DNA of 64,000 nt, taken from NCBI RefSeq assembly GCF_949628265.1, contig NC_088787.1, positions 1,602,501-1,666,500 of the forward strand, in the 5' to 3' direction. Below, piece by piece: positions 3,063 through 53,517 of the stretch (positions are counted from its first letter, which is position 1; each line of letters starts with the position of its first letter). This DNA comes from Cloeon dipterum (lineage: Eukaryota; Arthropoda; Insecta; Ephemeroptera; Baetidae). Both the position numbers and the translations under genes were made by a program. Under the pieces are notes generated by a model. That model was given only the letters and a program-made list of their open reading frames with translations. It made no database searches and was not told the origin of the DNA.

Positions 3063-6000
3063 TTAATTCAATCGCATTTTTTTGCTCGGTGACGCTTCCA
3101 TTTCATCAAACCTTCTGAGTAAATGAGTTGGACAAGATTCGTCAATGTAGTCACGAGCAGATTTTCCCTCATTGTCTATTATGCTGAGATCTACATTTTT
3201 AGACAAAATTATTTTAAAAAATTTCTTATGCCAGAGCCTCTCCTTGCAAGCTAGAATCAACGGGGTTTCGTTCAAAGCATTTGTAGCATTCAAATCAACT
3301 AAGCCTTGCTCCACAAGCCAAATAAGAAACTTATCATTCCTGTTGTGTTTATATAATTTGATTGCCAAATGCAGAGTAGTATCTCCATTGTTCAAACGCT
3401 GTTTAACCAAATCATCGTTTAACTTATGAATGAATAAAACAATGTGATAGTTTGCTATCGCATGGTGAAGTGCGTTCTTGCCGTCGTTGTCTGTCAAAGC
3501 CAAATCTGCGCCTCTTTTACAAAACTCTTGAACCAAATCAAATTGATTTATATCTTGTAGCTCATCGTCATTCTCATCTTCTTGCTCATCTTCTTGCTCA
3601 TCTTCTAGCTCATCTTCCAGCTCATCTTTTAGCTCATCGTCATTCTCATATTCTAGCTCATCTTCTTGCTCATAGAAATCATCGAATCGCACGGCGTAGT
3701 GCACGGCCGTTCTTCCATTGTTATCTCTGACGTGTATATCAACGCTTGCATTCAGCAAAGTTGTAGCAAAAATCCATTCTCCCTTTATGCAAGCTACAAT
3801 AAGCGGTGTCTCACCCTCATTGTTTCTTACATTTAAGTCATTTTCGCACTGCTCCACAAGCCAAGGAATAATGTCATCATCCCTGTACTCCTGTAACTTG
3901 ATTGCCAGATGCAGAGTAGTATCTCCATTGTTCAAATGCTGTTTAACCAAATCACCATTTAAATTATGAATGAATAAAGCCATTTGAAAGCTTCCTATCG
4001 CACGGTGAAATGCGTTCATCCCATCATTGTCTGTCAAAGCCAAATCTGCGCCTCTTTTGCAAAACTCTGGCACCAAATCAAAAGCATCTGAATCTTCTAG
4101 CTCATCGTCTTCATCCAATTGAACGGCGTAGTGCAGGGCCGTTCTTCCATTGTTATCTTTTACATTTAAATCAACACTCTTAGCCAGCAAAATTTTAGAA
4201 ACATTCAACCTTTTCTTCTGTAAAGAAAGCATTAGAGGTGTCTTACGCTCGCCATTTTTTACATTCAAGTCATTTTCACTTTGCTCAATGAGCCAAATAA
4301 GAAAGTTTTCATCCAGGATTTCTTCTAATTTGACTGCCAGATGCAGAGTGGTGTCTCCATTGTTCAAACGCTGTTTAACCAAATCACCATTGATATCATG
4401 AATGAATAACGCCATGTTAAAGTTCATTATCGAATGGTGAAATGCGTTCTTCCCGTCGTTGTCTGTCAAAGTCAAATCTGCGCCTCTTTTCCACAACTCT
4501 AGCACCAAATCCAAAGCATATGTATATTCTAGACAATCGGCTCCGTCCAAATTAACGGCGTAGTGCAGGGCTGTTCTTTCTTTTAAATCTTTAACATTTA
4601 TATCGGGACTTTTTTCCAGCAAAATTTCAGTAAAATTCCACTTTTTCCTCTTGCAAGCCAGCAAAAGCGGCGTTTCACCCTTCTCATTTGTGGAATTCAA
4701 ATCAGCTTGGCAAATATCAACAAGCAAAATTATAAATTTTTTATGGGTTACAGACGACCTTATTCCACAATGGAGGGTTGTGTCTCCGTTATTCAAACGC
4801 TGTTTAATCAAGGCGTTGTTTTCCTCGTGAAGATATATAAATGCCTCATAGTAATGCACTGCGTGGTGCAAAGCGTTCATTCCCTTGCAGTCTGTTAGAG
4901 TCAAATCTGCACCTTTCTCATGCATCAGTTTCACTAAACACAAGTTCTCACTATATGCGACGTAGTGCATTGCAGTTTTTCCCAATCTGTCTGAAACATT
5001 GACGTCAACATTTCTGGTCAGTAGCAATTCAGCAACACTCCATAGTCTTCTTTGGCAAGCCAGTAAGAGTGGTGTGTCGCCAAAATCGTTTTTCGCGTTC
5101 AAAGCGATGTCGTCTAATTGTTCTACAATCCACCGAATGATATTATCGTCGACTGCATTCTTGAAATTCAATGCCAAATGTAAAGTTGTATATCCGTAGT
5201 GTGAACACTGTTCAACTAGATGTTTGTTCTTTTCATTGATGAATCTCAGCATTTCTTCGCTGTCGAAAGCGTAGCACATTGCATTATTTCCTTCCATATC
5301 TGTTAGGGTTAATTCTGCGTTGTTTTCAAGCAACCATTTCATCAAATCAACATTTTTTGATTCAGCAGCAAGGTGCAGAGCTGTCCTTCCTTTATTGTCA
5401 CGTCTGTTTACTCTCTCATTCTTTATGATTGACAATCCAACGGAACTCTCACCAACATCTTGTTTCTTGGCATCGGCCTCAGCAGCGCAGGCTAAAAGCT
5501 TTTTCACAAATAGCAAGTGTCCTTTTTTAGCGGCATAATGCAACGCAGTCAGTCCTTCATTGTCTACCACATCCACGTCTCCACCCAGATCTATCCAAGC
5601 TTGCAGAGCCTCTAAATCACCCTTTCCAGCGGCGAAGTGCAGGCACGTTTGCCCCTCGTTGTTTTTGCCTTCAATGTTGATAGCTTTTGTCATCAAATAG
5701 TTAACGCATTCTTCGTGATATGCGAATTGTAACGCAGTACATCCATTTTTGTCCTCTGCCCATACGTCAACTCCAATTTCTTCGACCAGAAAACACGCCA
5801 CCTCAACCGAGCAATATTTGGATTTCAGAAGAATATGCAGCCCTGTTTCCCCGTTTTTTGTTCTTTCCTTGGCCAGCTGACTGTCTGTGCTGTGCAACAA
5901 TTGAATCACCTGTTCTTTATTGTCACTGTTACTTTTGCATGCAAAATGAAATGCATTCCAGCCATTTTCGTCTACATCTCGAATATTCGCGCCAGAGTGA

Positions 6001-9000
6001 ATCAACTCTTGGACACGTTCAAGATAACCATATTCTGCAGCGCAGTGAAGAGCAGTTTTTCCTCTTTCGTCAGTCATGGTAATGTCACTCTTCTGCAGAA
6101 TTAAGAAATGGTCCATGCATATCTGGTCATTCTGGGACCAATCTCTCGGTTCTCCACTTGGTTGTAAGGTGTTCACGTCAACCCCTACTTCGTCAACAAG
6201 CCATCGACACAATTCTAAATTTCCATTTATTGCTGATAATTGTAATGGACTCCAATTTAAATATGCTCTTTCATCATTGATTTCGTACATTTCTTTGTAG
6301 CGTGGCAGTCCAGTAATATTTTCCTCCAGTAAGAATTTGACCAGGTCAACATTATCATCAACAACAGCCTCAATCAAAGGGTTGCTGTTCACGCTAGATC
6401 CACATTTTGCCAATTTCGCGCCATGCTGGAGCAAAATATTCACACAATTCATAGCTCCGCATCTTACTGCACAATGTAAAGCGTTTCCGTTCATAAAATC
6501 CATGAAATCTATGTCGACACCACTTTGCAGGAGTAGAATAAGGATTTCGTCGTGATTCTTGCTTGCTGCGATTACTCCAGCATCTATTAAAAATCTTCTA
6601 GAGTAAATCATCTCTGGCAATCTAGGATATTTTGTTTTCAGCTTTTCAAAGAAGAGAGTTGCGTTTGTTTCAGCTACTGATTTCAACAGGTAAGGTAAAA
6701 TTATTTTCAACTCATCATCACTGTTGATTAAATCTGTGTCGAGCAGCATGATTGCAATTTCTTCCGCACCATCGATTGCTTCGACCAACAGAGACGTATC
6801 TCTTGCAACAGAAATACAATCACCCTCTTGGTTTTTACTAAAGGTGATGATTGGATCTATCAATTCTAGAGTTTTTTTGCACCCGTCAGAAGCAATCAAT
6901 CTCAAAAATCGATCTGGATTCAACTTCAAGACTGAAAGGAGTGATTCTCTGTGTTCTTCAATCTTTTCTTCGTCATTTATTAATGTGCAATAGAAAAGAT
7001 CGACAAACTTTCTGCACCACGAAAAGGATTGCCTGAAAAAGACGTGTGAAATATCTTCAATGCTGGTTTCGAAATCGCTTTCGCCACTATCCTCGACTTC
7101 ACGTAGAAAAAACAGGGCTGCGAGAAATTCGGCGAAAGTCTGATGAATGAAAATGACCTTGTTGTTTTCAAACGTGGCAATACCATAGTAGTTATTTTTT
7201 ACCAGATTGTCTCTGGTGTCACCTATTCGCTTGTCTCCTCTGATGTGGTAATTTGCAAACCTTTGAAGATCTTCCATAGCAATTGCGATATTCTCTTGAA
7301 ACTTGGAAAAGTTGTTTTTGTCAAATCCTTCCTTGATCAGAGTGTCTTCCACTTTTTGTCTGACAACCTGGTCGTAGATTTGGTATAAGTTTCCTTCGGC
7401 CCCGTACTTGGCAACCAAAGAAAGATGCAAAGGATTTTCCAAGATGTCCTTTGATGTAAAGTTCTGAATGAATTGTTCACATTCTTCTCTACTCTTGCCC
7501 GTCTCCAGCTGGAACAACTCGATTTGCTGTTCTTCATCCAAGGGATCAATCTCTACTAAAATAGCATTTGATATCCGTTTTTGGACTGCTTCTGCTGCGT
7601 GAGGTCTCGTTCCGACCCATACGGATATCTGCTTCTTTTCTAGAGCTTCCATTATTTTCAGCGTTTTTTCTTGGTTTTCAGGACGGATTTCATCAAATTC
7701 ATCGAAAAACACAACACATTGCTTGTTTTCTATGCTCTTTTTGATTTCCTCTTTCGAATTCTGAGTTGCTTCCGCGAGAAACTCAATCTCAGTCACGTTC
7801 CGCTTAAGAGATCTGAACGAAACTCTCGGGATTGAAATACGTAGAATTTTTAATTCTTGATTTAATTTTCCGAGCTGAAAAGCCATTTCCCTGAGGATTG
7901 TCGTCTTTCCTGTTCCTGCGACTGAACTCAAGAGCCAGATTTGTTTTTTTCTTGCTGATTCCTTCACCAAGCTATCGAAGCTGACGTGCTTTTCTCTTGA
8001 TATTTTAGTCTTTTTCAATAAAAAGTTAAGTTTAACAAAAGACCTGGGCCAGTCGGGAAAATTGAGGAGGTACTGCAGCGTCGAGTTGAGCATGTCCCTA
8101 TTTCCAATTGTTTCAGAAATCATCAGACTTGCGACGAGAAGCTCTTGCAAACTTTTATCCTTTTTAAGATCTTGCCCTTTGAAGATGTCGATTAGCTTTT
8201 CAAGTTCTTCTGTAGAAATGATAATTATTTAATTAACTCAAAAATAAGGAGATGAAAAATTTACCTTTGTTGTGCAAAACCAGGACTAACCATCCGCTGT
8301 GGTTTGTTGCCGATATTGTCATCTTGGGATGTATTGACCCGATCTTTAGGACAAAGATATTATAGTTTTCTTACTTTTCAGTTGTTTTCATTTCGAAAAT
8401 AACTAATTATTAAAAACATACATAGTCAAATGAGCTCGTTTCTTGATCCACAAGGAATAATATTTTAGGTTTTCCTATCCACTGGTCATTCTTTGGTCCG
8501 ATAAACTCGCGCAGTATTTCAGATGCTGCTATTTCTTGACCGTCAACCTGCACGCAAACCTCGTGCGTATCCTTGTTTTCACTTATTCGGCCAAACAAAA
8601 ATAAGAAAATGCAGCCAATGTCGGAGTCAAGCCTTGGGGCTGAAATATGAAGTTGCATAATTTGCAACAAACAAAATTTGATGATAAACCTTTATTAATT
8701 GATATCCACGGCTTTCCACTCAGCAACCTTACGCTGGTCTCAAATTCTAGGTTTTGGGACAACGCTCTTTTAATTTCTTTCAACTGCTCATTTGGCTCTG
8801 TAGAAAATAGAATGGCAAGGCGGTGTCTCAAGTTTTCCCCTGAACTTGACATCCAAGAGTAAAACTCGCGTTTCGTTTTAATTTTGCTACTCTTTGCGTC
8901 AGATGTCGAAGAAGTTGAGTAATTAGTAGTACTTCTGAAACACACAATTTTATCAAATAGATATTTTTTTAACATAAAACGTTTATGTTTTAAGTCTCAA

Positions 9001-10058
9001 GGGAAATCCTGTTAAATAATGAGAACTCACTTTGAGATGACAAAAATTCTGTCCTGGGAAAACATCTTCACTTCTGGAGTCTGTCCAGTGTAATTGTTTT
9101 CCATGATGTCCCAAATTTTGTGACTCTCATATTGAATAATTGCCAGGACATTTATTATACTCTCGTCCTTCTCAAGCGAATTGAAGACCTGACACGTTAG
9201 GCTGACGAAAGTTGTACCTGACTGGTTTCGTTTGGCCCTGGTAGCTGCGAAAATTATAGCAAACGTAAGAGAATAACAATTTTATTCACAAAAGACTTAC
9301 TTTCAACGGTTGAGAAGAACACAACCATGTTCCTCATCTGAGGACTGTACGTGATTCGGCAGGAATTTTCGTTCTTGAATTTTGCATCTTTTTCGAAAAA
9401 AATTACGTCTCCCAGTTCCCCTCTACATGGCTATAAATTAATTATATATTAAAACGAGTCTTTTGGTGATAACATAAACAGAGACTTACACCGAAGTTTA
9501 TAAATTTGAGACAGTCATCGAAACCAGTCAGCTTTTTCAGAGATTCGAATATATCCGTTGTTGTAAATGAAATAAAGTCGTTTGGGTCTTCATTCTGGTA
9601 GTGATCGGTGAAGATTTTTCCATCTCTGTAGCCGTGAGAAAGAATGTAAAGCACAAACACCGATGGAACATCTGTAAAACCAACACGATAAAATAGAATT
9701 TATTGAAAAGTGATTCGATTTACCTGTACAGCCGAATAATTGTAACAGCTCTTCTTGATCGGCGAGAAGCTGGAGCAACTCCTCTTTTCCTGGCGACAAA
9801 ATACTGCTGAAATCGCAGTTACGGTTCACTCTGAAAGTTCTTTCCAGATTCTTCACGTCTTGATCATCACCTTTCCGAATCCAGGATTCATCCTTAGTAT
9901 TCTCAAAATTGTAGTGAACAACGAGCACGCAAACACTGAGAATTCACGTTCTCAATTATTTATGTCAGATAATTTCCACGATTTGTTTACTTGTCTGCGT
10001 TTTTTCTAGTTTGGTCTTTCGACACGAAATATCCAAACTTGGCTGGCCCATCAGGCAT
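3063..10058 (-). CDS. Gene A: caspase / pseudo-caspase / NACHT / ankyrin protein (2164 aa)
   Basis: Nine coding exons read on the minus strand: 10058-9991, 9935-9724, 9671-9490, 9430-9301, 9244-9031, 8934-8690, 8639-8422, 8343-8265 and 8209-3063; all junctions are GT..AG and phases close. Residues 24-270 form a caspase domain: R43 in an RxGxxxD motif, H106 in SHG, C156 in PCRG and R203 in the p10 part. Their spacings resemble those of known caspases. Residues about 275-460 resemble a second caspase p20 (GKPKILFLV) but lack the His and Cys. Residues about 480-750 are a NACHT: Walker A GTGKTT at 548-553, Walker B FFDEFDE and a GTRP motif. From about residue 990 to the end runs a long ankyrin array. 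The ATG follows a 3' splice acceptor by about ten bases, implying an upstream non-coding exon. There is no signal peptide, so it should be cytosolic. The family assignment is by motif; a sensor-effector role is inferred. Confidence 0.85.
3540..3690 (-). repeat. Acidic low-complexity insert within the gene A ankyrin array
   Basis: About 50 residues rich in Glu, Asp and Leu (DELEDEL-type units, encoded by repeats of an AGCTCATCTT-type unit on the plus strand) interrupt the ankyrin array. The corresponding positions in B and D have only a short loop. It is in frame and looks like microsatellite expansion inside a surface loop between ankyrin helices. Confidence 0.8.
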
Positions 10059-10139
10059 TTTTCTCAACTGAAATAGTAAAATTTTCACTGAACATCAGTT
10101 ATTACCTCCAAAATCCTAAATTTTATTATGGATTTAAGG

Positions 10140-10779: not shown

Positions 10780-11450
10780 TCCGTCGAGCAGCCACGCGGA
10801 AGTAGAGAGGAAAGTGCAAAACGCGCACAAAAAGTCTAAGAACCACTCTCAAGAGGCCGCTCGGCTCGGTTAATCTAATCTAATCGCGAAAGTCGGCACA
10901 CGTCAAGCTATGTGGCTAGATTGTAGACAAAAATAAACTGTACAAATGTTGCATGGAAAATAAAATAGGAATTCCAATAGCTCTTGCTGTTTTTACTCTG
11001 TTTCTTTAATTGAACAATCCGCTATAGAAACGAACAATATAAATGGGGTTGTTCTCATTTGCATTCCTTTTTAATTTAGCCTCGATGTTATCATAGCTGA
11101 AGTGAATAAATTCATTCACTTAAATCAAAACGTCAGTACAAATATTAAAATCTGCAGAGCAGCGAACAAAAAACCATACAAACACTTGACTTACCTTATA
11201 GATGATCTCACATGAAGTCAGAGAACTCAGGAAAATTTTCAGGGCAGCTGCCCTCACAGGGTTAAGAGAGAGCAACTCGCCGTCACTGCACGGAAGTTCA
11301 CACTCGCGTCAACTGCTTCTCGTTGTGGTGTACGTGCGGGGCGGCTGGATAGCGTATCGCCTATCGCGAGTTAGACTTTTTCGCAGAAAGTGAGTCACAG
11401 CAGTTTCGCTTTCGTCGCTGGCAGTTCCTCGCTCTCCCGCACAGTGGCGG
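10780..11450 (+). repeat. GC-rich flank repeat upstream of gene A
   Basis: Contains both parts of the dispersed repeat: GCGCACAAAAAGTC and the ATCTAATCGC segment, then GATCTCACATGAAGTCAGAG with TTTTCAGGGCAGCTGCCCTC, then the GTTAGACTTTTTC and CCCGCACAGTGGCGGCA segments. It separates gene A from the serpin locus. No gene is evident in it. Confidence 0.7.
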
Positions 11451-11959
11451 CAAGGAAGCTGTACCTTTTATACGAATAGTAAAAAACCAAACTACGATAC
11501 TGTGCCCGATTTCTGTTATCTTTCCTTACCGAATCAAAATTTTGCACTCTGATTTTACGTTTTTTAGTAACACTCAAAGAACAAAATTTGGTTCACTGTG
11601 GCTTAGGGTGAATATAAATATTCCATAGTGTCGATTACCTTTAGATTTAAATCTATGGATGGGATCGTTGCATAAAGATAAAAATTCAAGCTACGTTTTT
11701 CGACATCAAGTCTTATCTTTTTAATTCCTACTTTCTCTTTTAATTGATTTCCGAAACACACGATTACTCAGAACTCTATTTGGGTTTGAAACATCTTAAT
11801 AATCGTCTTTATTGTTTTTCTGCTGGTCATTGCCATCTCGTGTTTACAATTTCGGAATGGATCGACGTAAATGAAGAAGATAATTTTTTGCGAACATTTT
11901 CCTTGTGCTCAACGCAATATTATTTTATATTATGTTATACAGGAAAAAATACAGCAAAT

Positions 11960-19680: not shown

Positions 19681-21290
19681 GCGATGCTCCACGTGCGGAG
19701 CGACAGGTTGGCGATCCGCCTCCCGCGAGATAGCAGAAAGTGAGTCACCGCGGTTTCGCTCTCGTCACTGGCCCGCACAGAGGGGGCAACAAACACTCGC
19801 TGAGCTACACAATTAAGAAATGTATCACGCAGCACGCGGATAAGAGGTTACATTGAAACTTTGATTTTTGTTTAGATGCGGCATATCGTTTTGACAGTGT
19901 CCATTTATGAATATTATATACGTATCGTGATTCAATAAAAAATCATTTTGTGGCATTAATTTTAATTTTTTCAATTTCTATTTCTCAGCTTGGACGGTCA
20001 GATGTATTATTTTTTCTGCACAAGTCCATTTATCATTTAAAAATGGAAACAATTAATTTTGATAAGAATTTAATGCACAGTTGCCGCGCACAAGCAAGAA
20101 AATCAAAGTGCGGCGCGTAACAAAAATCATCTTTGTTTAACTCGACGAGATTGGCTGCTGCCGCCTCGGTGCGGGCAAGTGAGGAACTATCGGAGAGAAG
20201 GAGAGCGAAACCGTGGTGACTCACTTCCTGCGAGAGGCGAAACGCCAGGCAGCCGCTCCGCACGCACACCACGACGAGAAGCCGGTGCCGCGAGTCGCGA
20301 GTTTTCACGTCCGCGCGGCCAGCTGCGCGTCCCTCTCCAAATTTCGAGAGCAGCTGCCCTGAAAATTTTCCGGAGTTCTCTGACTGAATGTGAGATCAAC
20401 TATTCGGCAAGTCAAATGATTTAAGGGTTATTATTTGCTCCCAACTCAAAAATTTCTTGTATTCTTGCTAACGGTTTGAGAGCATCAAGGCAAAAGTAAC
20501 TAAAATTGATATTGACTGCTTTCTTTGAAATTAACGAATTGGACTCTTTGCGGAGTGCTCAGTAAAATAAACAGAAAACACTGAATTATCGGAATTCATG
20601 TTTATTTTTCAAGCAGTATTGCACACAGGACTGCGGTATCAAAATAATTTTTGACGCCTGCTGACTGCCGTGCTGCGATAAGAGCGCGAGTTTGATTAAG
20701 ATTAACCGAGCGACCTTGAGGCGATTTTCGTGCGCGTGTCGCTCTTTTCTCTCCCCATCCGCAGACCAGCCGCGCGTCTGATCGGTGCATTTGTTAAATA
20801 TAACTTCCTCCACTTTACATTGAAGTGTAAAGGCCAGCAACAAATCTCGCGCTCACCCGCGTCGATTTGCCGGATCCTCTCGCTAGACAGAAAATGAAAT
20901 TCACAATCTTTTAATTCTTTTGCTTTTGGTTCCGTTAAATTAAAAATTTTCGGCTTCCCATTGGTACCAATGAAATAAATTTTGCCCGGCGAGAGCGTTT
21001 TGAGGTGCATTTAACATGGCATAAGGAAAACTGCCTGTCCACATCACTTTCTTTATATAATTTACTTTAAATTGGCGTTGTTACACGTAAATTTGGTGTT
21101 GCATTGGGGAGTGCTCAAAAGAATTTATTTCTTATGCAACATGGAAGATTTTTTTCTACTTAAATTTAGCTAACAGAGCTCGCGTATTGAAATATTGCTT
21201 GCCGTCTGATGACTAATGCGATAAGAGCGCGATTCTTATAGAATTTTCGTACACGTGTAGCTCTTCCCTCGCCTTAAGGAGTGGTGACAG
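19680..21290 (-). repeat. GC-rich flank repeat, complex copy upstream of gene B
   Basis: A short plus-oriented fragment (about 19680-19860, with GTGAGTCACCGCGGTTTCGC) is followed by a minus-oriented copy at about 20030-20420 ending in ATGTGAGATCAACTATTCGG. Two further units of the CGATAAGAGCGCGA / TTGCGGAGTGCTCAGTAAAA part follow at about 20540-20830 and 21100-21290. ORFs inside are short and inconsistent between copies. Confidence 0.65.
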
Positions 21291-27800: not shown

Positions 27801-27980
27801 AATGCTCTGAACGAAACCCCGCTGATTCTGGCTTGCAAGGGGAGCTATCACCTTAGGAATATTGTTAAAATTCTATTGTCAAAAAATGTGGATGTCAATG
27901 TAAAAGACAATGAAGGGAAACTGGCTCGGCACTACGTAGAACAGTTTTGTCCAATGCAAATACTTAAAAAGATGTATTAA
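21891..27980 (+). CDS. Gene B: caspase / pseudo-caspase / NACHT / ankyrin protein (1855 aa)
   Basis: Nine coding exons: 21891-21958, 22014-22225, 22280-22461, 22514-22643, 22702-22906, 22977-23224, 23279-23496, 23616-23691 and 23752-27980. Layout and phases match gene A. The caspase part has IREGDAQD, SHG and PCRG, and p10 has AKRDQKG. The second caspase-like part reads GKPKILFLVNQE where an active enzyme has QACRG. NACHT motifs are GTGKTT, LDGFDEI and GTRP. The ankyrin array is shorter than in A: three rather than five units of the roughly 145-residue GDTTLHL-type block. The stop at 27978-27980 cuts off about a dozen codons that are still recognisable relative to gene A (TCAAGCG..AGAGAATTAG). 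A 3' acceptor 8 bases before the ATG implies an upstream non-coding exon. Confidence 0.87.
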
Positions 27981-28559: not shown

Positions 28560-29650
28560 CGGTCAAGTATATCATTTTTTTTCTACACCAGAGACAATTA
28601 AAATCATTTAAAAATGGAAACAATTAATTTTTATAAGCATTTTATATCCAGACGCCGCGCGTACAAGAAAAAAATAAAATTGCTGTGCGTAACAAAAATA
28701 ATCTTGTTTATCTCGACGAGATTGGCTCTGTGCGGGCGAGTGTTGAACTGATAGAAAGGAGAGAGTGAAACCGCGGTGACTCACAGCCAAAAAAGTCTAA
28801 CTCGCGAGAGGCGACACTCAAGCCGGCCGATTTGCACGCACACCACGACGAGAAGCCGGTGCCGCGAGTCGCGTGTGTGAACGTCCACGCGGCAACCGAC
28901 GAGTTGCTCTCTCTCCAAATTGTCAGGGAAACTGCCCTGAAAATTTTCACGCGTTCTTTGGCTAGATGTGAGATCAACTATAAGGTAAGTCAAATGTTTT
29001 AGGGTAACTGCAATTTATTACATCTGTGATAACGTTTTGACAGCTTGAAGGTGAAATTAAAAATAAATTCGCATTTATAGGGACAGTTTTCTTTAACATT
29101 AATATATTGTAACTTTTGCGGAGTGCTCCGTAAAATTATTAAAACAATACACAGCTTAATAATTCATATTTTATTTTTCAAGCAACATTGCACAAAATTT
29201 TCTTATAAAATTTAACCGCACAGGGCTGCCGTCTCAAAATAATTTTTGACGCATGCCGACTACTGTGCTGCGATAAGAGTGCGAATTTGATTAAGATTAA
29301 AAAGCCTTGAGGCGATTTTCGAGCGCGTGTGTTGCTCTTTCCTTTCCTCATCCGCTGACTGATCGGCGGATTTGTTTAAATATAGCTTCTTCCACCTTAA
29401 AATAGGTGTTTTTATTTTGGAGTGCTCAGTAATACTATATTTTTCATGCAACAAATCAGATTTTTTTCTGCTAAAATTTAGTCACAGAGCTTGCGTATTG
29501 AAATATTGTTTGCCGTCTGATGACTAATGCGATAAGAGTATGATTAACAAGGCGGCATTGATAACGGTACTTAGACTTTTTGGGTTGCTCTTTTCATCTC
29601 CTGATGCGCCGACCAGCCGCGCTACTCATCGACGGATATGTTAAATAATA
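28560..29650 (-). repeat. GC-rich flank repeat between genes B and C
   Basis: Minus-oriented copy. The first part (28610-28990) ends in ATGTGAGATCAACTATAAGG; it is followed by TTTTGCGGAGTGCTCCGTAA and two units of the GCGATAAGAGTGCGA part (about 29100-29400 and 29440-29650). The arrangement is the same as at 20030-21290 and 37795-39000. Confidence 0.7.
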
Positions 29651-37032: not shown

Positions 37033-37260
37033 TAGATGCTGGAGTGAAAGCAGCAATAAAGAATCGCGGCGAAATCTTTAATCTACTCCTGCAAAGCAGT
37101 TTCTACATTATGTTGAAAAATTATGTTTAGCTCCGTTAAAAGTTTTGATAAAATTCAAGCGTGCAACATCACCACCTGATGTGCATCAGCTATTCTGGTT
37201 CAAACTCTTTTGTAAATATGCAATATCCCTATAACCTTCTTGAAAATTGATTGTTAATTA
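37033..37260 (+). pseudogene. Remnant 3' coding sequence of gene C with ankyrin region deleted
   Basis: After the stop at 37032, the shifted frame continues as LIDAGVKAAIKNRGEIFNLL, which matches the start of the first ankyrin unit in A, B and D. Near 37105-37130 the homology jumps to the last codons of gene D (CTCCGTTAAAAG, then CAATATCCCTATAACCTTCT). Compared with D (about 44140 to 46650), roughly 2.5 kb of ankyrin-coding sequence is missing. Confidence 0.8.
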
Positions 37261-37794: not shown

Positions 37795-39300
37795 TATCCA
37801 TTTCCTTTGCTTGGACGGTCTAGTATCATTTTTTCTACACAAAGCCATCAATCATTTCAAAATGGAAACAATTAATTTTTATAAGAATATAAATTTCCAG
37901 TTGCCGCGTATAAGCAAAAAAAATCAGAGTACTGTGCGTTAACAAAATTAATCTTGTTTATCTGGACGAGATTGGCTGCTGCCGCCTCTGTGCGGCCGAG
38001 TGTTGAACTTACAGAGAGGAGAGTGAAACCACCAATCTGTGAAAAGTCTAATGAAAAAGTCTAACTCGCGAGTGGCGAAACGCCAGCCAGCCGCAGCCGC
38101 TCCGCGCGCACACCACGACGAGAAGCCGGTGCCGCGAGTCGCGAGTGTGACCGACCACGCGGCGACGGCGTGTTGCTCTCTCTTAACATCGTGAGAGGGA
38201 AGCTGCCCTGAAAATTTTCAAGAGTTCTCTGACTAAATGTGAGATCAACTATTAGGTAAGTCAAGTGTTTTTAGGGTTATTTGTTCCCGCCACGTATCTG
38301 CAATTTATTATGATTCGTTCTAACGTTTATATAGCATCGAGGCTTAATTAAAGAAGGTAAATGGGAATTATAATCCTGCTATTTACATTGATTGTTTTCT
38401 TTAAAATTATTGTATTGGACTTTTTGCGGAGTGCTCAGTAAAATGAATAGATAAAATAAAGCAAGTGTTAATAGATTTCATATTTTTCGCGTCTAAAATG
38501 GAGACACAGAGCTAGCGTTATAAAATAATGTTTGCCGTGTGCTGACGGATGCGATAAGAGAGCGATAAACCGAGCGGCCTTGAGAGTGGTCCAGTGGTCC
38601 CTAGACTTTCGTGTGCGTGTTCTCTCCTTTCCTCATCCACCCACCAAACGCGCGGCTGTTTGTGGGATGCATGTTAAATTTAATATCACTTCTTCTATTT
38701 TAAATAACAGGCGGAAATTCACGTAAAATAAAACTTCTGATGACAAAAGTTTTCCTGCACGTTAAACGTGTTAGTAAATAGATAAAACACGGCAAGAATT
38801 AATGAAATTAATTTATTTTTGGCAACCCTGCATATTTTTAAAGCCACAAAGCTTGCGTATTAAAATAATCTAGGCCGCCAGCTGAGTGCTGCGATAAAAA
38901 TGCGGCTAACCGGGTGACCACGAGAGCGGTTTTTGGTTCTTAGCCTTTCGTGCGCGTGTTGCTCTTGCTCGCTCTGCGCTGGAGCCGACCGGCAGGAGGT
39001 CCTCGGAGGTGGCCCAAAACCCAAAACGCGGCAAGAACGGACGCAATTCCGCTGCGGTGGGCACTTCTTTAATTAGCTCGACTTTTGCTGCTGCCTCGTG
39101 CCTCTATGCGTGTGAGTGAGGATTTATGAGGAAATTACGCTGACAGTGAGGAGAGTGTTATATCGCGGGGAATCACTTTATACAAAAAAGTCTAACTCTC
39201 GAGAGTCGGTCGTGAGAGGCGAGAAAAACCAACCAGCCAGCTGCACCGCAACCGCACGCACGCCACAAGGAAAAAGCTGCTGTCGCTGCTGTTACTGAAA
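37795..39300 (-). repeat. Left arm of a long inverted repeat (GC-rich flank repeat, upstream of D)
   Basis: Minus-oriented copy of the flank repeat. Its continuation at 38940-39300 (GAGCCGACCGGCAGGAGGTC, CTCTCGAGAGTCGGTCGTGA) is almost exactly the reverse complement of 54900-55340. Outer ends also correspond: the segment near 37800-37880 with GGAAACAATTAATTTTTATA pairs with 56360-56440. The arms at 37.8-39.3 kb and 54.9-56.4 kb enclose genes D and E. Confidence 0.8.
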
Positions 39301-40616: not shown

Positions 40617-43600
40617 ATGCCTGAGGGGCCAGCCAATTTGGGATTTTTCGTGTCGAACGAACATCCTAGAAAAAACGCAGACAAGTATGAAATCGTGGAA
40701 ATTATCCAACTTAATTAATTACCAAGCCTAATTTTCAGTGTTTGCGTGCTCGTCGTTCACTACAACTTTGAAAATACAAAGGATGAATCCTGGATTCGGG
40801 AAGGTGATGCTCAGGACGTAGTAAATCTGAAACAGACCTTCGAAGAGAAACGTAACTGCAACTTCCGCAGTATTTTGTCGCCGGAAAAAGGGAAGTTGCT
40901 CCAACTTCTCGCCAATCAAGAAGAGCTATTAAAATTATTCTGCTGTTCAGGTAACACAAAAGAAGCCCTTGCTTTGATTAATTACGTTTTATCTTAATGA
41001 TTTTATACAGATGTTCCATCAGTGTTTGTGCTGTACATTCTTTCTCACGGTGACATAGATGGAAAAATCTTCACTGATCACTCCCAGAACGATGACCCAA
41101 AAGACTTCATTTGCTTCACAACAACGGAGATATTCGAGTCTCTGAAAAAGCTGACTGGTTTCGAGGATTGCCTCAAATTAATAAACTTCGGTGTAAGTCT
41201 CTGTTTATATATCACCAAGACTCATATTAAAATAATTTACTTCTAGCCATGTAGAGGGGAACAGATAGACTCAATTTTTTTCGCCAAAGACGAAAATTTC
41301 AAGAACGAAAATTCCTGCCGAATCACCTACAGCCCTATGATGAAAAACACGGTTGTGTTTTTCTCAACGGTTGAAAGTAAGACTTATATGTCAATAAAAA
41401 TTTGATTCTCTAGCTTAAGTGCAAAATATTTCCCAGCGACCAAGGCCAAACGAGACCAGAAAGGAACAACATTCGCCTTGCTGACGTGTCAGGTCTTAAA
41501 TTCACTTGAGAAGGACGAGAGTCTGATTAACGTCCTGACAACTATTCAAAATGAGACTCACAAAGTTGCGGTCAAAGAGAAAAGTGGACAAACTCCCGAA
41601 GTAAAGATGTTTTCTCAGGACAGAAGTTTTGTCTTCTCAAAGTGAGTTTTCATGATTGAACAGGCATATGGCCTGAGTCTGAATAAAAATATATGATGAA
41701 TCAAATGTTTCAGAATTTCTACCAATGATTCATCTTCATCGACAATTGAAGCAATGAGTATTAAAAATAAAAGGGAACGCGAGTTTTACTCGTGGAAGTC
41801 AAGCTCAGGGGAAAACCTGCGTCACCGCCTTGCGATCCTACTTTCCTCAAGGATAAACGAGCAGTTGAAAGAATTTAAAATAGCGCTATCCCAAAACCTA
41901 GATTTTGAGACCTGCGAAAGGAAGCTGAGTGGAAACCCATGGGCGCCCATAAATGAAGGTTTTACAACATATTTATATTGATAAGCTTGAAATTAAGCAA
42001 TTAATATTTCAGCCTCGAGGATCGACTCCGACATTGGCTGCATTTTCCTCATTATTTTTGGCCTTGTGAGTGAAAGCAAGGACACGAATGAGGTTTGCGT
42101 GCAGGTGGACGGTCAAGAAACTGCAGTTTCTGAAATACTGTTCGAGTTCATTGGGCCAAAAAACGACCAGTGGATTGGAAAACCTAAAATACTATTCCTT
42201 GTGCATCAGGAAACGGGCTCGTTTGACTCCGTAAGTAATATTTCTATTTAATTTCGAATTAATCCAGAACGTATAGAAAAATAATCAAAGTAAGAAACTC
42301 ACTCTATGTTATTTTTCTATAGATCGTACCACAAAAACCCAAAATGGAAATATCAGCAACAAACCACAGTGGATGGTTAGTTCTTGTTGTACACGGAAAA
42401 GGTAGTTTATTTTTAATCAAAATGTAAAAACTTTAAAAAAAAATTTATATAGAAACACTTGAAAAGCTGATAGAAATCTTCAAGGGGGAAGAGCTGAAAA
42501 AGAAGGAGAAAAGTCTGCAAGAACTGCTCGCAAGTTTGTTAATTTCCGAATCGATAGAAAATAGGGATATGCTTAACTCGACGCTCCAGTACCTTCTTAA
42601 TTTTCCCGACTGGCCCAGGTCTTTAGTTGAACCTAACTTTACAGTAACAAATTATCAAGATTTTCAAGCAAAGTTCCGTTCTTTCGACAGCTTGGCGAGG
42701 GAATCAGCAAGAAAAAACCAAAATATTTGGATCTTGAGTTCAGTCGCAGGCACAGGAAAGACGACAATCCTCAGGGAAATGGCTTGTCGGATTGGGAAAC
42801 TCAATCCAGTATTAAAAATTTTACGCGTTGCCCTCCCGAGAGTTTTGTTCAACAGGGATCTCAGGAACAAGACTGAGATTGAATTTCTCGCTAAAGTCAC
42901 TCACAATTCGCAGGAGGATATAAAAGACAGCATAGAAAATGAGAAATGTGTTGTGATTCTTGATGGGTTCGATGAAATTCGTCCTGAAAACCAAAAAAAA
43001 GTGCTGAAAGTAATCGAAGCTCTAGAAAAGAAGCAGGTGTCCGTGTGGGTTGGAACGAGACCACACGAAGCAAAAAGAATTAAAAATCTAACATCGAAAG
43101 CTGTTTTAGTAGAGATTGATCCCTTGGATGAAGAGCAGCAAATTGATTTGTTGAAGCTGGAGACGGGCAAGAGCAAAGACGATTGTGAACTAATCAGAAA
43201 GAGCATTACATCCAAGAAGATATTGGAAAACCCATTGCAACTCTCTTTGGTTGCTAAGTACGGGGCCGAAGGCAACTTGTACCAAATCTACGACCATGTT
43301 GTGCGGCAAAAGATGGAAGACTCTCTAATCAGGAAAGGGTTAGACAAGGAAAATGAAGTCAAGTTTCAAGCGGAATTAGACAATGCATTGAAACGTCTTG
43401 AAGAGATAGCAAGTTGCCACATCAGAGGAGTTAATCTAAATGATGTCGCGAGAAAATACTTTAAAGAAATGAACTGCTATGGCATTGCCACCTTTGAAAA
43501 CAACAAGGCTATTTTCATTCATCGGACATTTGCCGAATTTCTTGCAGCTCTGTATTTTCTACGCGAAATCGAGGAAAATAGTAAGAGTGACTTCAAAGCC

Positions 43601-46600
43601 AGCACTGAAGATTGTGCAAATTTATTTTTCGGGGAACCATTTTCGTTGTGCAGAATGTTCATCGATCTGTTCTATTCCACAGTTTTGAATGACGCGAAAA
43701 CAATTGCGGAGCACAGAGAATCAATTCTTCTGGTCATGATGTTAGATCCAGACAGGTTTTTGCGATTCATCATTCACAATGGCTGCATTAATACTTTCAA
43801 AATGATTTATCCAATGATTTCCTTCGGAGAAACCATCCAGGGTAATTTTATATATGCTACAAAGGATAGGACTCTTTTGGTCAGGGCAATCGATAGTTCG
43901 GAAGAAATTGCAACAATTCTGCTCGACACGGACTTGATCGAAAGGGATGAAGAGTTGGTAATAATTTTACCTTACCTGTTGAAGGCAGTAGCTGAAGCAA
44001 ACGCATGTCTCTTCTTTGAGCAGATGAGAGAAAAATATTCAAGATTGCCAGAGATGATCCACTATAGAAGATCTTTAATCGATGCTGGAGTGCTTGCAGC
44101 AAGAAAGAATCACGGCCAAATCCTTATTCTACTCCTGAAATACGGCGTCGACAGAGATTTCATACATTCTATGGAAGGAAACGCTCTACATTGTGCTATT
44201 GTTTATGGAGCTATGGATTGCGTGCAAATTTTACTTCAGCTCGGCGCGAAATTGGCAGAAGATGGAATTAGTGACAGCTGGGACCCTTTGATGTTGGCTG
44301 TAAGAGAAAATAACCTAGAAATGGTCAAATTCTTACTGGAGGAAACTATCAGTGGACTGCAGCGCAACAAAGAAACTTTAGAAATCAATGAAGTAAAATC
44401 AGATTTGAATGCTTTCCATTTTGCTGTTCAGGAAGGGCACAATGAAATCGCAAAATTGTTAATAAAAGAGAGCCCAAGTTTGGTAAACATGGAAAATGGC
44501 TCCAATGGAAGTCCTTTACAAGTTTCGGCTGTAAATGGAAATTTAGAAATGTGTCAATGGCTTGTTGACGAAGTTGAGGTTGACGTGAACACCTTACGAC
44601 CAAGTGGAGAACCGAGAGATTGGTCCCCGAATGACCAGATATGCATGGACCATTTCTTAATTCTGCAGAAGAGTGACATCGACATGAAGGACGCAAGAGG
44701 GAAAACTGCTCTTCACTGCGCTGCGGAACATGGATATCTTGAACGTGTCAAAGAATTGATCAAATCTGGTGCAAATATTCGAGCTGTTTCCAAAAATGAA
44801 TTGAATGCTTTTCATTATGCTTGCAAAATTTACAGTGACCATAGAATAAATGTGATTAGATTCTTGCACAGCATTGACAGTCAGCTGGCCAAGGATAAAA
44901 CCAAAACAGGACTAACAGGGCTGCTTATTCTTGTGGCAAGTTGCGATGACCCCTTGGATGGGAGAGCTCGTTTTCTGGTCGAAGAAATTGGAGTTGACGC
45001 AAGAGCAAAGGATAACCAAGGCCGCACTGCGTTGCGTATTGCAGTTAACAAAGGAAAGGATTGCGTCGACTATTTGATGACAAAAGATATCAACCTGGAC
45101 GTCAAAAACAAACGGGGCCAAACGTGCTTGCATGTAGCTGCTCTAAGGGGCGATTTAGAGGCTCTGCAAACTTGGATAGAACTCGGTGGAGACTTGGATG
45201 TTGAAGACGTAAGAGGATTGACAGCTTTGCACATTGCCGCTTGTAGAGGACATTTGCAATTTGTGAAGAAGCTCTTAGCCTGCGCAGCTGAGGCCGATGC
45301 CAAGAAACAAGATGTTGGTGAGTGTTCTTCTGGATCCTCACTGAAAGAGATCGAGAGAGTAAACAGATGTGACAATTTTGGAAGAAGACCTATGCACCTT
45401 GCTGCTAGCTCAGAAAATGTTGATTTGGTGAAGTTTTTCCAGGGAAACAAAGCAGATTTAAGTCTAACGGACTTTGAAGGAAAGAATGCAATCCACTACG
45501 CTGTTAACAACGAAGGAATGTTAAAATTCATCAATGAGAAGGACAAAGATCTTCTGAAACAGTGTTCAGAAAACGGAAACACAGCTTTACATTTGGCATT
45601 GCAATTCGATAATGCAATCGACCATAACATCATTCAGTGGATTGTGCAACAAGTAGACGACACCGTTTTGAACGCAATAAATGCTTCTGGTGAAACACCA
45701 TTATTACTGGCTTGCAGGAAAATGTTCTGGAGTGTCGCAGAATTGCTGCTGACCAGAAATGTTGACGTCAATGCCACGGACATGTGGGGAAAAACTGCAA
45801 TGCACTACGCCGCAAATAGTGACAACTTGTTTTTGGTGAAGAGGATGCATGAGAAACGTGCAGATTTTGCTCTAACAGACAGCGAAGAAATGAATTCTTT
45901 GCACCATGCAATGCAATTCTTCGAGATATTTTCATTCCTTTACGAGAAAAACAATGATTTGTTGAAGCAGCGTTTGAAAAACGGAGACACATTCCTCCAT
46001 TGGGCTATAAAGTCTCGCTTTCGAGCTGACAAATTCCTTTGGCTTGTCCAAAAATGCGAAATTGACTTGAATGTAACAAACAGCAATGGTGACACTCCAC
46101 TTCTGTTGGCTTGCAAGAGTAGATTGTGGAAAGTTGCTAAAATATTGGTTGCTAAAGGTGCTGATGTACAAGTGCCGGATAGAAATGATAGAACGGCTCT
46201 ACACTACGCCGTGAATTTGAAAAACTTCTATGATATAGAGCATTCCCATGCTTTTGATCTGGTACAAAAGTTGCGGAATAAAGGCGCGGATTTGGCTTTA
46301 ACAGACAACGAGGGGAAGAACGCATTACACCATGCGATACAAAACTTTCACATGGCATTATTCATTCATGCTATCGACAATGAATTGGTAAAACAGCCAT
46401 TGAAAAATGGCGATACTACTCTGCACTTGGCAATCAAATTACACAAATTTGAAAGAAATGAATCCTTTATTATTTGGCTTGTGGAGCATGGTGGCATTGA
46501 TTTGAACGCGACAAATACCTTGAACGAAACACCGTTGATTCTGGCTTGCAAGGAGAGAGACTGGAAAATGAACATTGTTGAAATACTACTGTCTAAAGAT

Positions 46601-46786
46601 GTGGATGTCACTATAAAAGACCATGAGGGGAAATCTGCTCAGCACTACAGTGACAACATATGTTCAACTCCGTTAAAAGGGTTTATTGAATTGAAACGTG
46701 AAGCCTCGCCACCTAATGTGCAGCATTTTCCTGATTCAAACCATTCTGTAAATAAGCAATATCCCTACAACCTTCTTGAAAAATGA
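40617..46786 (+). CDS. Gene D: caspase / pseudo-caspase / NACHT / ankyrin protein (1890 aa)
   Basis: Nine coding exons: 40617-40684, 40739-40950, 41011-41192, 41247-41376, 41437-41641, 41714-41958, 42013-42230, 42323-42401 and 42453-46786; all phases close. Caspase motifs IREGDAQD, SHG and PCRG and p10 AKRDQKG are intact. The second caspase-like domain reads FLVHQETGSF and lacks the catalytic residues. NACHT motifs are GTGKTT, ILDGFDEI and GTRP. The ankyrin array has three units of the 145-residue block, as in B. Exons 3-5 and their introns are almost identical to those of gene B, although exon 9 is clearly diverged, which suggests exchange between the loci. The C-terminal tail after the last ankyrin (EASPPNVQHFPDSNHSVN) is unrelated to the A tail. 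Confidence 0.88.
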
Positions 46787-50487: not shown

Positions 50488-53400
50488 TCATTCTAACTTG
50501 TGGAGTAGAAACCTTTTGCACCTCGGAAAGGATTGCCCAAAAAATGCATTTGCAGCTTCTTCAATGCATTCGCCACTATCCTTGATTTCCTGTAGAAAGT
50601 ACTGGGCTGCAAGAAATTCAGCAAAATTCTGACGAATGAATAGAACCTCGTTGTTTTCAAACGTGGCAAAGCCATGGCAATTCATTTCTTCAAGCCGTTC
50701 CCTTAACTCACCATCTATTTCTTCTCCTTTGATATGGCAACTTGCTATCTCTTGAAGACGTTCCAAAGCAGTGTCCAATTCCTCTTGAAACGTTTTTTTG
50801 TTGTTCTTGTCATATCCATTCCTGAGCAGAGAGAGTTCCAATTTGTGTTCCACAACTTTTTCGTATATCTGGTACAAGTTTCCTTCGACATTGCTCTGAG
50901 CAACGAAAGAAAGGTCCAAAGGATTTTCCAAGATGTCCTCTGCTGGAAAATCTTTGATGAATCCTTCACATACATCTCGTCTCTTTCCCGTCTTCAGCTG
51001 AATCAACTCGATTTGCTGCTCTTTATCCAAGGGTTCAATCTGTACCAAAACAGCACTTGATGAACACTTTAGGACTGCTTCTGCTGCGTGCGGTCTTGTT
51101 CCGATCCAAACTGATAACAGCTTCTCTTCTAGAGCTTTGATTACTTTCAGTGTTGTTTCTTGGCTTTCAGGAGGGATTTCATCAAACCCATCAAGTAGCA
51201 CAACACATTGCTTGTTTTCTAAGCTCTTGATAATTTCCTCTCGTGAATTTTCGGTGGCTTCCGTGAGAAATTCAATCTCGTCAACAACGTTCTTCTTCTT
51301 TTGGCCTCTGAACTGAACCTTGGGGAGGGAAAAGCGTAAAATTTTGAATTCTGGACTTAGTATTCCGAGCTGAAAAGCGATTTCCCTGAGGATAGTCGTC
51401 TTTCCTGTTCCTGCGAATGAACTCAAGAGCCAGACTTGGATTTTTCCTGCTGATTCCTTGACCAAGCTGTCGAAGCTGACACGCTCTTGTCGATATTCGT
51501 TAGACTTGGTAACTGAAAAGGAGGGTTTGACAAAAGGATCGGGAAACTTCAGAAGATACTGAAGCGTCGAGTTAAGCAAATCCCTATTTTCTTTTGATCC
51601 AGAAATTAACAGACTTGCGAGAAGTTCTTGCAGCGTTTTCTCCTTTTTCAGCTCCTGTCCCTTGAAGATATCGATCAGCTTTTGAAGTTCGTCTATATAG
51701 TTGAAAATTTATTTAATTATACTAACAAATTTATAGAATATAAAAGACCAACCTTTGTTGTGCAAAACGTGGACTAACCATCCACTGTGGTTTGTTGCTG
51801 AAATTTCCATTTCGTGGTTTGTTCCTTTCTTTAAAACAAATATAATATGAGTTACTTTTTTTCATATATTTTTTTTTACAAAAATCAAACACTTACGGCG
51901 TCAAACGATCCCGATTCCTGATTCACAAGGAATAATATTTTTGGTTTTCCAATCCATTGGTAATTTTTCGGTCCGATTAGCTCGCGCAGTACTTCGGAAA
52001 CTGCAGTTTTTTTGTTGTTCATCTGCACGCAAACCTCCATGTCCTGGTTTTCGCTCAGTCGGCCAAACATAAATAGGAAAATGCAGCCAAAGTCGGAGTC
52101 ATTCCCAGAGACTGAAATATAAACTGCATAATTTACGGTATATCACTAAGAGTAGAAGTAAAACCTTTGTTGATTGACTCTCTCAGGTTTTCAATCAGCT
52201 TCAATTCGCTGGTCTCAAAATATAGATTTTGGGACAGTGCGCTTTTAATTTCTTCCGACTTATCAATTGGCTCTGCGGAAAATAGGAACGCAAGGCGGCG
52301 TCGCAATTTTTCCCAACAATAATAATCGCCTCTCTTTTCATTTTCATGTGCGTCAGACATCGAGGAAGCTGAAGGACTTCTGAAATACATAATTTGTTAT
52401 AGCATAAAGCTGATAGCCTTATTATTTCACAACTCAAGAGAATTCATGTTAAATCACCAAGACTCACTTTGAGAAGACGAAACTTCTGCTCTGAGTAAAC
52501 ATCTTTACTTCTGGAGTTTGTTCAGTGTAATTTTTTTGACTCTCGTATTGAATAGCTGTCAGGACATTTATAAAACTCTCGTCCTTCTCAAGCGAGTCTA
52601 AGACCGTGCAAGTATGGCGGGCAAAAGTTGTTCCTGTCTGGTCCCGATTGGCCATGGTCGCTGAGAAAATTATAGCAAAAATTAGATAATAAAATTTGTA
52701 TTGACAATAAGTCTCACTTTCAACCGTTGAGAAGAACACTACCGTGTTCCTCATCAGAGGGCTGTAGGTGATTCGACAAGAGTTTTCGTTCTCGTACGTG
52801 GTATTTTTCTGGTTTCTGTTATGAACTGCGTCTATCAGTTCCCCTCTGCATGGCTAAAATTAATTATTTAACACCATGTTTTCATGATATTAGCTGAGAC
52901 TTACACCAAAGTTGATAAATTTGAGACATTCCTCGAAATTAGTCAGCTTTTTCAGAGACTCGAATATCTCGGTTGTTGTGAAGGAAACAAACAACTCTAT
53001 CGGGTCCGTACTTCTGGCACGCTCTTCTGCGCTCGCGGGAGCATCGTCCTTGAAGTAGTCTGTGAAGATTATTCCATCTCTGTGGCCGTGAGAAAGAATG
53101 TACAGCACAAAAACTGATGGAACATCTTCTGTAAATTCATTACGATAAAATATATTTTATCGAAAAGCTTTATAATATATTTTACCTGAAGTGCCAAATA
53201 ATCGTAGCAGTTTTTCTTGATTGGAGAGAAGTTGGAGCAACTCCCCTTTTCCAGGTGACAAAATACTGCTGAATTTGCAGTTCCGGTTCACTTTGAAGGT
53301 TTTTTCCAGATTCTCTACGTCCTGAGCATCACCTCCACGAATCCAGGCTTCGTTCTTGGTATTTTCAAAGTTGTAGTGAGCAACGAGCACGCAAACACTG

Positions 53401-53517
53401 AGAAGTAAGGTTTTGATTTAATTTTGTCGGATAGTTTCTACGATAGTTATACTTGTCTGCATTTTGTTTGGTTTGGTCGTTCAACACGAAATATCCTAAA
53501 CTAGGTTCGTCAGGCAT
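50488..53517 (-). CDS. Gene E: caspase / pseudo-caspase / NACHT protein, truncated (846 aa)
   Basis: Nine coding exons on the minus strand: 53517-53453, 53397-53186, 53128-52905, 52853-52718, 52660-52468, 52379-52165, 52111-51897, 51828-51753 and 51692-50488. The caspase motifs IRGGDAQD, SHG, PCRG and ANRDQTG are intact. The second caspase-like domain reads FLVNQESGSF and is inactive. NACHT has GTGKTT, LLDGFDEI and GTRP. It is closest to gene C: both share the PSASSM exon 6 start and an insertion in exon 3. The frame ends early in the region after the NACHT (RFLLHKLE) because of what looks like an 11-base deletion relative to C (GTCGATCTGTT missing). It is either a pseudogene or a short caspase-NACHT protein. 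Confidence 0.75.

Follow-up and report, generated by a model that had tools for sequence, protein, structure and literature searches.

A Cloeon dipterum gene family predicted to join a caspase, a dead caspase-like domain, a NACHT NTPase and ankyrin repeats in one chain

Vertebrate and fly systems recruit their caspase through CARD, DED or PYD domains, and accounts of insect immunity usually include no NLR inflammasomes. We analyzed a window of 64,000 nucleotides (nt) in the insect Cloeon dipterum (the whole stretch G000:C2:1602501-1666500; the genome comprises 190 Mb on 10 contigs), in which five genes, A to E, belong to one family. Their predicted proteins combine a caspase domain (domain 1), a second caspase-like domain that lacks the catalytic residues (domain 2), a NACHT NTPase and, in three of the genes, an ankyrin array.

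Several described systems resemble parts of this layout; papers given by PMC number are cited for individual passages. Animal NLRs (NLRC4, NLRP3, NOD2, NAIP) share with the family a NACHT with Walker A and Walker B motifs, an N-terminal effector side and a C-terminal repeat side, but the family has ankyrins instead of leucine-rich repeats (LRR), and a caspase with a pseudocaspase where NLRs have CARD, PYD or Death domains. The solved NLRC4 and NLRP3 inflammasomes are oligomers, according to the titles of the structure entries. Bacterial metacaspase-NACHT-WD40 proteins (PMC3501461) likewise place a caspase-fold protease and a NACHT in one chain (here a modelled one) with C-terminal repeats; the family differs in being of an insect, in a domain that is closest to metazoan caspases among solved structures, in its dead second domain and in its ankyrins. 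In the apoptosome (Apaf-1, Dark, CED-4) a STAND NTPase also activates a caspase, but there a separate caspase is recruited through CARD, as by Dark for Dronc (PMC9950452), and the NTPase is of the NB-ARC type, whereas the family carries its caspase in the chain. The pair of c-FLIP(L) and caspase-8 (PMC7864959) similarly sets an active caspase beside a dead caspase-like domain; in the family both stand in tandem in one chain, with no DED found, throughout the 35 loci read. Fungal NLRs resemble the family in their large NACHT-type repertoires, fused N-terminal domains and repeat arrays, but the passages cited mention a metacaspase N-terminus for bacterial STAND proteins and describe no such caspase-NACHT protein in fungi (PMC4986451).

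Bacterial caspases occur alongside STAND NTPases in conflict systems (PMC8195603), and the all-in-one STAND layout has been proposed as ancestral (PMC4986451). The fusion of a protease to a STAND or NLR-like protein is therefore known in principle from bacteria, and what is unusual here is the host, the tandem dead domain and the numbers. For animals, passages of a 2024 survey of metazoan inflammasomes describe arthropod NLRs without an N-terminal effector domain and omit arthropods from the phyla that may have inflammasomes (PMC11508797). Insects and nematodes are said to have lost large parts of the ancestral apoptosis network (PMC2246300). NLR-like reports from insects do exist, since a termite transcriptome included NLR-like sequences and one NACHT-WD40 protein (PMC3712931), and a caspase-bearing NLR may exist in sponges, because the legend of a sponge NLR figure includes CASc, a caspase domain (PMC12909245). 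We found no insect family of the caspase-pseudocaspase-NACHT-ankyrin layout in the open-licence literature (predicted proteins in sequence databases were outside this search), in agreement with an earlier prediction, made from the letters of this stretch alone, that no insect NLR system of this kind is well described.

Gene models and the genome-wide family

Gene B was built by hand from its splice sites, and the other genes of the window were modelled with a spliced protein-to-DNA aligner and the B protein as query. All five loci were open from ATG to stop. They have nine coding exons in shared phases (2,1,0,1,2,1,0,1), just as the original prediction had read, and GT-AG introns. Window coordinates and predicted protein lengths in amino acids (aa) are as follows.

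3063..10058, minus strand: gene A, 2164 aa, spliced model, GT-AG introns, no internal stop
Gene A exons, minus strand: 10058-9991, 9935-9724, 9671-9490, 9430-9301, 9244-9031, 8934-8690, 8639-8422, 8343-8265, 8209-3063
21891..27980, plus strand: gene B, 1855 aa, hand model, GT-AG introns, no internal stop
Gene B exons, plus strand: 21891-21958, 22014-22225, 22280-22461, 22514-22643, 22702-22906, 22977-23224, 23279-23496, 23616-23691, 23752-27980
31102..37032, plus strand: gene C, 993 aa, truncated before the ankyrin array
Gene C exons, plus strand: 31102-31169, 31225-31436, 31489-31724, 31780-31915, 31970-32174, 34713-34933, 34989-35206, 35291-35369, 35426-37032
40617..46786, plus strand: gene D, 1890 aa
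Gene D exons, plus strand: 40617-40684, 40739-40950, 41011-41192, 41247-41376, 41437-41641, 41714-41958, 42013-42230, 42323-42401, 42453-46786
50488..53517, minus strand: gene E, 845 aa, truncated
Gene E exons, minus strand: 53517-53453, 53397-53186, 53125-52905, 52853-52718, 52660-52468, 52379-52165, 52111-51897, 51828-51753, 51692-50488

The proteins start with MPDGP (A), MAGEA (B), MPEGP (C and D) and MPDEP (E). Exon 3 is longer than that of B by 54 nt in C and by 39 nt in E, in frame, and exon 9 of C and of E ends ahead of any ankyrin array, which makes these two loci truncated. Intron 5 of gene C measures 2538 nt, compared to 70-96 nt in the other four genes, and contains four tandem copies of a 125-bp repeat as well as arrays of the 11-bp GTGACGTCAAA type (window 33343-33847 and 32698-33079).

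The NACHT exon had 104 matches in the genome, spread over five contigs; the weakest of them may be other NACHT genes. The pairing with caspase exons was counted for 103 of these matches (one split fragment was omitted) and for the 150 listed of 272 caspase-exon matches. The 103 are distributed as 50 on C4, 34 on C2, 8 on C3, 6 on C1 and 5 on C5, and two clusters hold 78 of them, at 0.7-4.8 Mb of C2 (30 of 34) and at 29-36.1 Mb of C4 (48 of 50). At least 80 of the 103 NACHT loci had a caspase-exon match on their own strand no more than 8 kb upstream (median of the nearest 1.5 kb), compared to 7 with a match downstream and 2 with one on the opposite strand. Conversely, a NACHT lay downstream of 149 of the 150 caspase-exon matches listed. 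Among 36 Pfam caspase matches, 27 had no downstream NACHT and look like conventional caspases elsewhere.

We read 24 further loci, 20 on C2 and one each on C1, C3, C4 and C5; 20 were the next best NACHT matches, and L029-L032 were chosen on other contigs with caspase matches already known. In the models of all 24, both caspase domains were joined to the NACHT. The exons and phases of the window genes recurred exactly in 16, while L014, L016, L018, L020, L021, L029, L031 and L032 had split, fused or shifted exons; exons 2 and 3 form a single open exon in L029 and L032. The model of L025 needs a frameshift, and those of L012 and L014 contain a stop. Another six loci were read out of the 23 without a first-pass caspase match, and all six had both caspase domains upstream (L038, L039 and L041 exact, L042 modelled without exon 1, L040 and L043 differing). 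The layout was thus present in 35 of 35 loci read (5 in the window and 30 further), with the exact pattern in 24 (5 + 16 + 3). Outside the window the aligner permits GC donors with a penalty; the base-by-base donor check covers the window. These counts bear out the multigene family of the original prediction, and Pfam matches together with the spliced models place its four parts (caspase, inactive caspase-like domain, NACHT and, in three genes, ankyrins) in one predicted chain. The models of L016, L018 and L020 have in common extra short splits in exons 2 and 3, which may be artefacts of the aligner at in-frame insertions or genuine new introns.

Could the models have mis-joined a caspase gene made of exons 1-5 or 1-8 to a separate NACHT-ankyrin gene next to it, made of exon 9, with tandem duplication preserving the pair? 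Exon 5 of B, left unspliced, runs into a stop at its donor, and 6 of the 10 introns examined contain the word AATAAA or ATTAAA. However, the exon 5 stop is no evidence for two genes, because a phase 2 donor of the GTRAGT type always reads into a stop, and 9 of the 10 introns are 51-96 nt long, which leaves no space for a terminator and a promoter. The models of all 35 loci make the same joins, exons and phases being identical in 24. The Met that comes first in exon 9 of B has given way to another residue in E and in several other members, and the caspase and NACHT parts are both constrained. Given intron size, phase conservation and the caspase-NACHT pairing, we rejected the two-gene reading, which we find scarcely credible.

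A viral origin was rejected, as viral contigs held no relative of the NACHT, and so was a bacterial one, as bacterial and archaeal contigs held no relative of domain 1; each scan used only two short patterns.

A caspase domain with the catalytic dyad and a caspase-like domain without it

Domain 1 is encoded by exons 1-5 and domain 2 by exons 6-8, at the following window positions.

9031..10058, minus strand: caspase domain 1 of A (exons 1-5; spliced model, alignment, catalytic positions)
21891..22906, plus strand: caspase domain 1 of B (exons 1-5), with LSHG and GPCRG (Pfam Peptidase_C14)
31102..32174, plus strand: caspase domain 1 of C (spliced model, catalytic positions, Pfam scan)
40617..41641, plus strand: caspase domain 1 of D (spliced model, catalytic positions)
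52468..53517, minus strand: caspase domain 1 of E (spliced model, catalytic positions)
8265..8934, minus strand: pseudocaspase domain 2 of A (exons 6-8; spliced model, catalytic positions)
22977..23691, plus strand: pseudocaspase domain 2 of B (exons 6-8 and probably the first part of exon 9; PDB profile, catalytic positions)
34713..35369, plus strand: pseudocaspase domain 2 of C (spliced model, catalytic positions)
41714..42401, plus strand: pseudocaspase domain 2 of D (spliced model, catalytic positions)
51753..52379, minus strand: pseudocaspase domain 2 of E (spliced model, catalytic positions)

Peptidase_C14, on whose presence in exons 2-5 the original prediction had staked its reading, was found in exons 1-5 of B with E 6.8e-10 (39.5 bits against a cut-off of 21.4) and in domain 1 of all 10 family members scanned (best 1.3e-16). 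Profiles were built from 10 of 28 members for domain 1 and from 13 of 28 for domain 2. Against PDB the domain 1 profile reached E 3.1e-12, and the best 60 of 158 rows were all metazoan caspases, with caspase-3, CED-3, caspase-8 and caspase-7 among them. For domain 2, all 52 PDB matches at E<=1 were caspases, with a best E of 8.3e-6. We read the small-subunit half of domain 2, including an SGWL motif, as running from exon 8 into exon 9, a putative assignment of our own without profile detection.

Catalytic positions were compared in 28 of 29 models (L025 was left out as it needs a frameshift). In domain 1 the S1 Arg, the His, the Gly after it, the Cys and the Arg after the Cys were each present in 28 of 28, and the small-subunit Arg in 26; the S1 Arg positions come from a by-eye alignment to known caspases. 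In domain 2 neither catalytic residue occurs in any of the 28: the His position holds Phe, Leu or Tyr, and the Cys position Glu, Thr, Val, Lys or Pro. The original prediction's view of the second domain as inactive agrees with this pattern of a dyad kept in one domain and lost in the other. One divergent member, L043 (G000:C2:29646000-29649800), has SACRG in place of GPCRG and an exon 9 split in its model; it is perhaps nearer the founding form of the family.

Residues 1-531 of B matched only Peptidase_C14 and one insignificant domain of unknown function (DUF), with no CARD, PYD, Death or DED family, and none of these four families appeared among the 13 domain 2 and 10 domain 1 sequences scanned. 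An exon-by-exon search of the genome gave a sole CARD match at E<=0.01 (G000:C3:11478003-11478242); because of this match, a conventional CARD pathway may coexist with the family. In the same kind of search NB-ARC had three genome matches, all at places already in the NACHT list, and no separate apoptosome NTPase was found.

NACHT, ankyrin array and selection

Pfam NACHT scored above its cut-off in exon 9 of all five window genes, and ankyrin families were matched in exon 9 of A, B and D only.

7512..7922, minus strand: NACHT of A (Pfam NACHT E 6.9e-8)
24036..24440, plus strand: NACHT of B (E 2.6e-7)
35701..36117, plus strand: NACHT of C (E 8.3e-10)
42743..43150, plus strand: NACHT of D (E 2.5e-9)
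51001..51414, minus strand: NACHT of E (E 1.8e-7)
3066..6551, minus strand: ankyrin array of A, start approximate (Pfam Ank_2 E 6.5e-120)
25389..27977, plus strand: ankyrin array of B, start approximate (Ank_2 E 2.8e-110, 14 stretches)
44093..46783, plus strand: ankyrin array of D, start approximate (Ank_2 E 2.7e-103)
37091..37244, plus strand: degenerate ankyrin remnant 3' of the stop codon of C (tblastn, query the ankyrin portion of D, E 8.9e-8)

The Walker A Lys and the first Asp and the Glu of Walker B were each present in 28 of 28 aligned models. With respect to the motifs listed in the original prediction, SHG, PCRG and GTRP stood in all five window genes, while GTGKTT and DGFDE each held in four, C having GSGKTT and A having DEFDE. 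The predicted fold of the NACHT core had its best structural matches in NLRC4, NLRP3 and NOD2, so the structure prediction proposed as a check gave an NLR-like NTPase core; no apoptosome chain was named among the 50 rows of this comparison, which excludes nothing. In the window NB-ARC was matched only in E, below its cut-off (18.8 bits against 23.5). No LRR was found at Pfam E<=0.01 in A, B and D, which have ankyrin families instead, and no WD40 family appeared in the Pfam scans, the C-terminal repeats being ankyrins; the window scans at the thresholds used gave neither WD40 nor CARD. Defence-system and NCBI libraries yielded one weak partial match near the P-loop and sub-cut-off ankyrin-based matches, some of them named bacterial ankyrin effectors. 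A search for the PRANC domain gave no match, and its control search was likewise empty. The ankyrin exon of gene A contains a 12/24/36-nt tandem repeat (window 3552-3673) that encodes an acidic, Glu/Asp-rich insert.

Selection was estimated as the ratio of nonsynonymous to synonymous substitution rates (dN/dS) in 26 of the 28 models (L012 and L014 were left out for their stops). The median was 0.35 for domain 1, 0.32 for domain 2 and 0.47 for NACHT, with 155, 220 and 154 of 325 pairs scored (dS 0.05-1.5) and no scored pair above 1. For windows along exon 9, frames came from 20 of 29 models, and 16 of these, close members, were used. Up to residue 600 the windows gave 0.36-0.49 with one exception of 0.65, and past residue 600 they gave 0.67, 0.54, 0.56 and 0.78; the last, in which 30% of pairs exceed 1, also has the lowest dS, and most loci read over the first part of the ankyrin array only. 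By these estimates purifying selection acts on all domains, least strongly on the ankyrin array. Between members, the distances measured for the three domains correlate (r 0.93-0.96, and 0.33-0.67 within 18 close members), which leaves room for some exchange between genes.

With its roughly one hundred NACHT loci, its tandem clusters and an ankyrin array under looser constraint, the family would fit a receptor repertoire directed at varied triggers. A role apart from pathogens, in germline conflict, transposon control or gamete competition, could also yield tandem, fast-growing families, and it would be compatible with the clustering (30 of 34 C2 matches and 48 of 50 C4 matches in the two regions given above) and with the truncated copies C and E. 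On the other hand, the NLR-like predicted core and the looser ankyrin array fit a receptor, and we regard the non-pathogen role as quite improbable.

A splice acceptor stands immediately 5' of the start codon in all five window genes, and 16 of the 29 loci searched share a conserved block 1-5 kb upstream, with a GGTAAGT donor at the end of its consensus. Because this block ends in such a donor, a non-coding first exon in front of the coding exons is likely. The blocks in the window are given below; for A, C, D and E, offsets were converted to window positions.

19941..20510, plus strand: conserved 5' block of B, a presumed promoter plus a non-coding exon that carries the GGTAAGT donor; of the 29 upstream regions, those of 15 other loci have a match
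11161..11452, minus strand: conserved 5' block of A
28546..29004, plus strand: conserved 5' block of C
37809..38351, plus strand: conserved 5' block of D
55898..56440, minus strand: conserved 5' block of E

The interval that separates genes A and B (window 12801-18119, plus strand) contains open reading frame (ORF) pieces of two putative serpin-like genes in tandem (VNAIYFKG..W..PF, FFTDENTSVQVP); that they adjoin caspase genes is possibly of interest. A gene of the MRJP/yellow type occupies 62299-63976 on the minus strand (Pfam MRJP E 4.2e-24 in exon 63311-63976), with additional ORF pieces upstream of it within the window. Contig C5 carries an Osiris-type cluster (DUF1676), and both families are marks of an insect genome. 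A search for a TTAGG telomere array, of a kind that may skip simple repeats, gave none.

Proposed mechanism and its meaning

We consider a one-piece inflammasome or apoptosome the best explanation of the family proteins, and a fairly probable one. If the nine exons form a single transcript, a full gene would yield one chain with a short N-terminus, a caspase with the His-Cys dyad, a dead caspase-like domain, a NACHT switch and an ankyrin array. A ligand bound to the array would release an autoinhibited NACHT module, the freed NACHT would oligomerize, and the caspase domains would be gathered. With a caspase in the place of a recruitment domain, oligomerization alone would suffice for this, and proximity would switch on domain 1 with no need for CARD, PYD or DED adaptors. 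Local proteolysis would then lead to cell death or to immune signalling. Initiator caspases are activated by dimerization or on oligomeric platforms (PMC12052993, PMC9950452). The interpretation in the original prediction, taken as a whole, is partly supported.

A number of results weigh against this proposal. The key junction of exons 8 and 9 rests on splice sites and phase, because no stop-free fused copy (an intron-free exon 8-9) was found among the matches listed. The caspase match of domain 2 covers the large-subunit half only, Pfam matched a caspase in domain 2 of just 1 of 13 members (E 2.9e-4), and hhalign gave no match between the profiles of domains 1 and 2. Used by itself, the NACHT profile matched no PDB chain at E<=0.1; the mean pLDDT (predicted local distance difference test score) of the fold model was 68.9 (five rows), with 48.6-57.4 for the other four models, and the structural alignment extends to model residue 476 although pLDDT is mostly 45-66 past about residue 370. 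No kB-like site (GGGRNNYYCC) was present in the 16 upstream blocks. As to domain 1, the Gln of the QACRG motif, part of the S1 pocket, is replaced by Gly in 27 of 28 models and by Ala in one, which may mean a different substrate choice or low activity. The inter-subunit linker has an Asp six residues past the Cys in 28 of 28, further Asp positions in at most 9 and one Glu in 20; maturation by cleavage at Asp is not supported, because only the Asp near the Cys is kept throughout. Activation by proximity, in the style of initiator caspases, would fit domain 1 better.

The hhalign result, together with the conventional caspases found by the domain 2 profile, led us to reject the idea that domain 2 is a recent duplicate of domain 1.

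The same features of domain 1 bear on whether the caspase kills. It might be a protease of low activity or one that signals, like Dredd in the fly Imd pathway, or that cleaves few specific host or microbial proteins. The loss of the Gln in all 28 models and a linker without a conserved cleavage Asp except the one near the Cys would be in line with this, as would the insect caspase Dronc, which has the motif PFCRG and, according to the title of a paper of 2000 listed in PMC9950452, reportedly cleaves after Glu or Asp. An altered P1 preference is predicted for the family because the Gln is lost, as in Dronc. However, the catalytic His and Cys and the S1 Arg do not vary in any of the 28 models, as one would expect of a real protease, and the alternative concerns the output only, with the same layout; we consider it unlikely.

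In the proposed one-piece receptor, the dead domain 2 is probably a built-in dimer partner of domain 1, in the manner of c-FLIP(L) and caspase-8, and could activate or restrain it. Since it is as constrained as domain 1, it would have a conserved task. It might instead act as an inhibitor or a spacer, with activation requiring the pairing of domains 1 between chains; the absence of both catalytic residues in 28 of 28 would suit such a role, and c-FLIP(L) is described as stabilizing or inhibiting caspase-8 depending on their ratio (PMC7864959). Nothing decisive speaks against it, domain 2 being constrained like domain 1 (dN/dS 0.32). We hold it to be possible, though short of probable; it is compatible with the one-chain layout, and the two readings are not exclusive.

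That an insect lineage has about a hundred one-piece inflammasomes, each with a sensor array, an NLR switch, an activating pseudocaspase and a caspase in one chain, is in our judgment an evenly balanced proposition. If true, the bacterial all-in-one layout would have returned in an animal, and the all-in-one-STAND-first idea (PMC4986451) would become testable in an animal. The insect would have an intracellular receptor repertoire with a built-in effector, compared to the effector-less arthropod NLRs described in the passages cited of the 2024 survey, and a large family with a built-in protease would contradict that survey for this insect (PMC11508797). The family would also offer a compact system for adaptor-free caspase activation by NACHT oligomerization, and its dead tandem partner would be a natural case for what pseudocaspases do.

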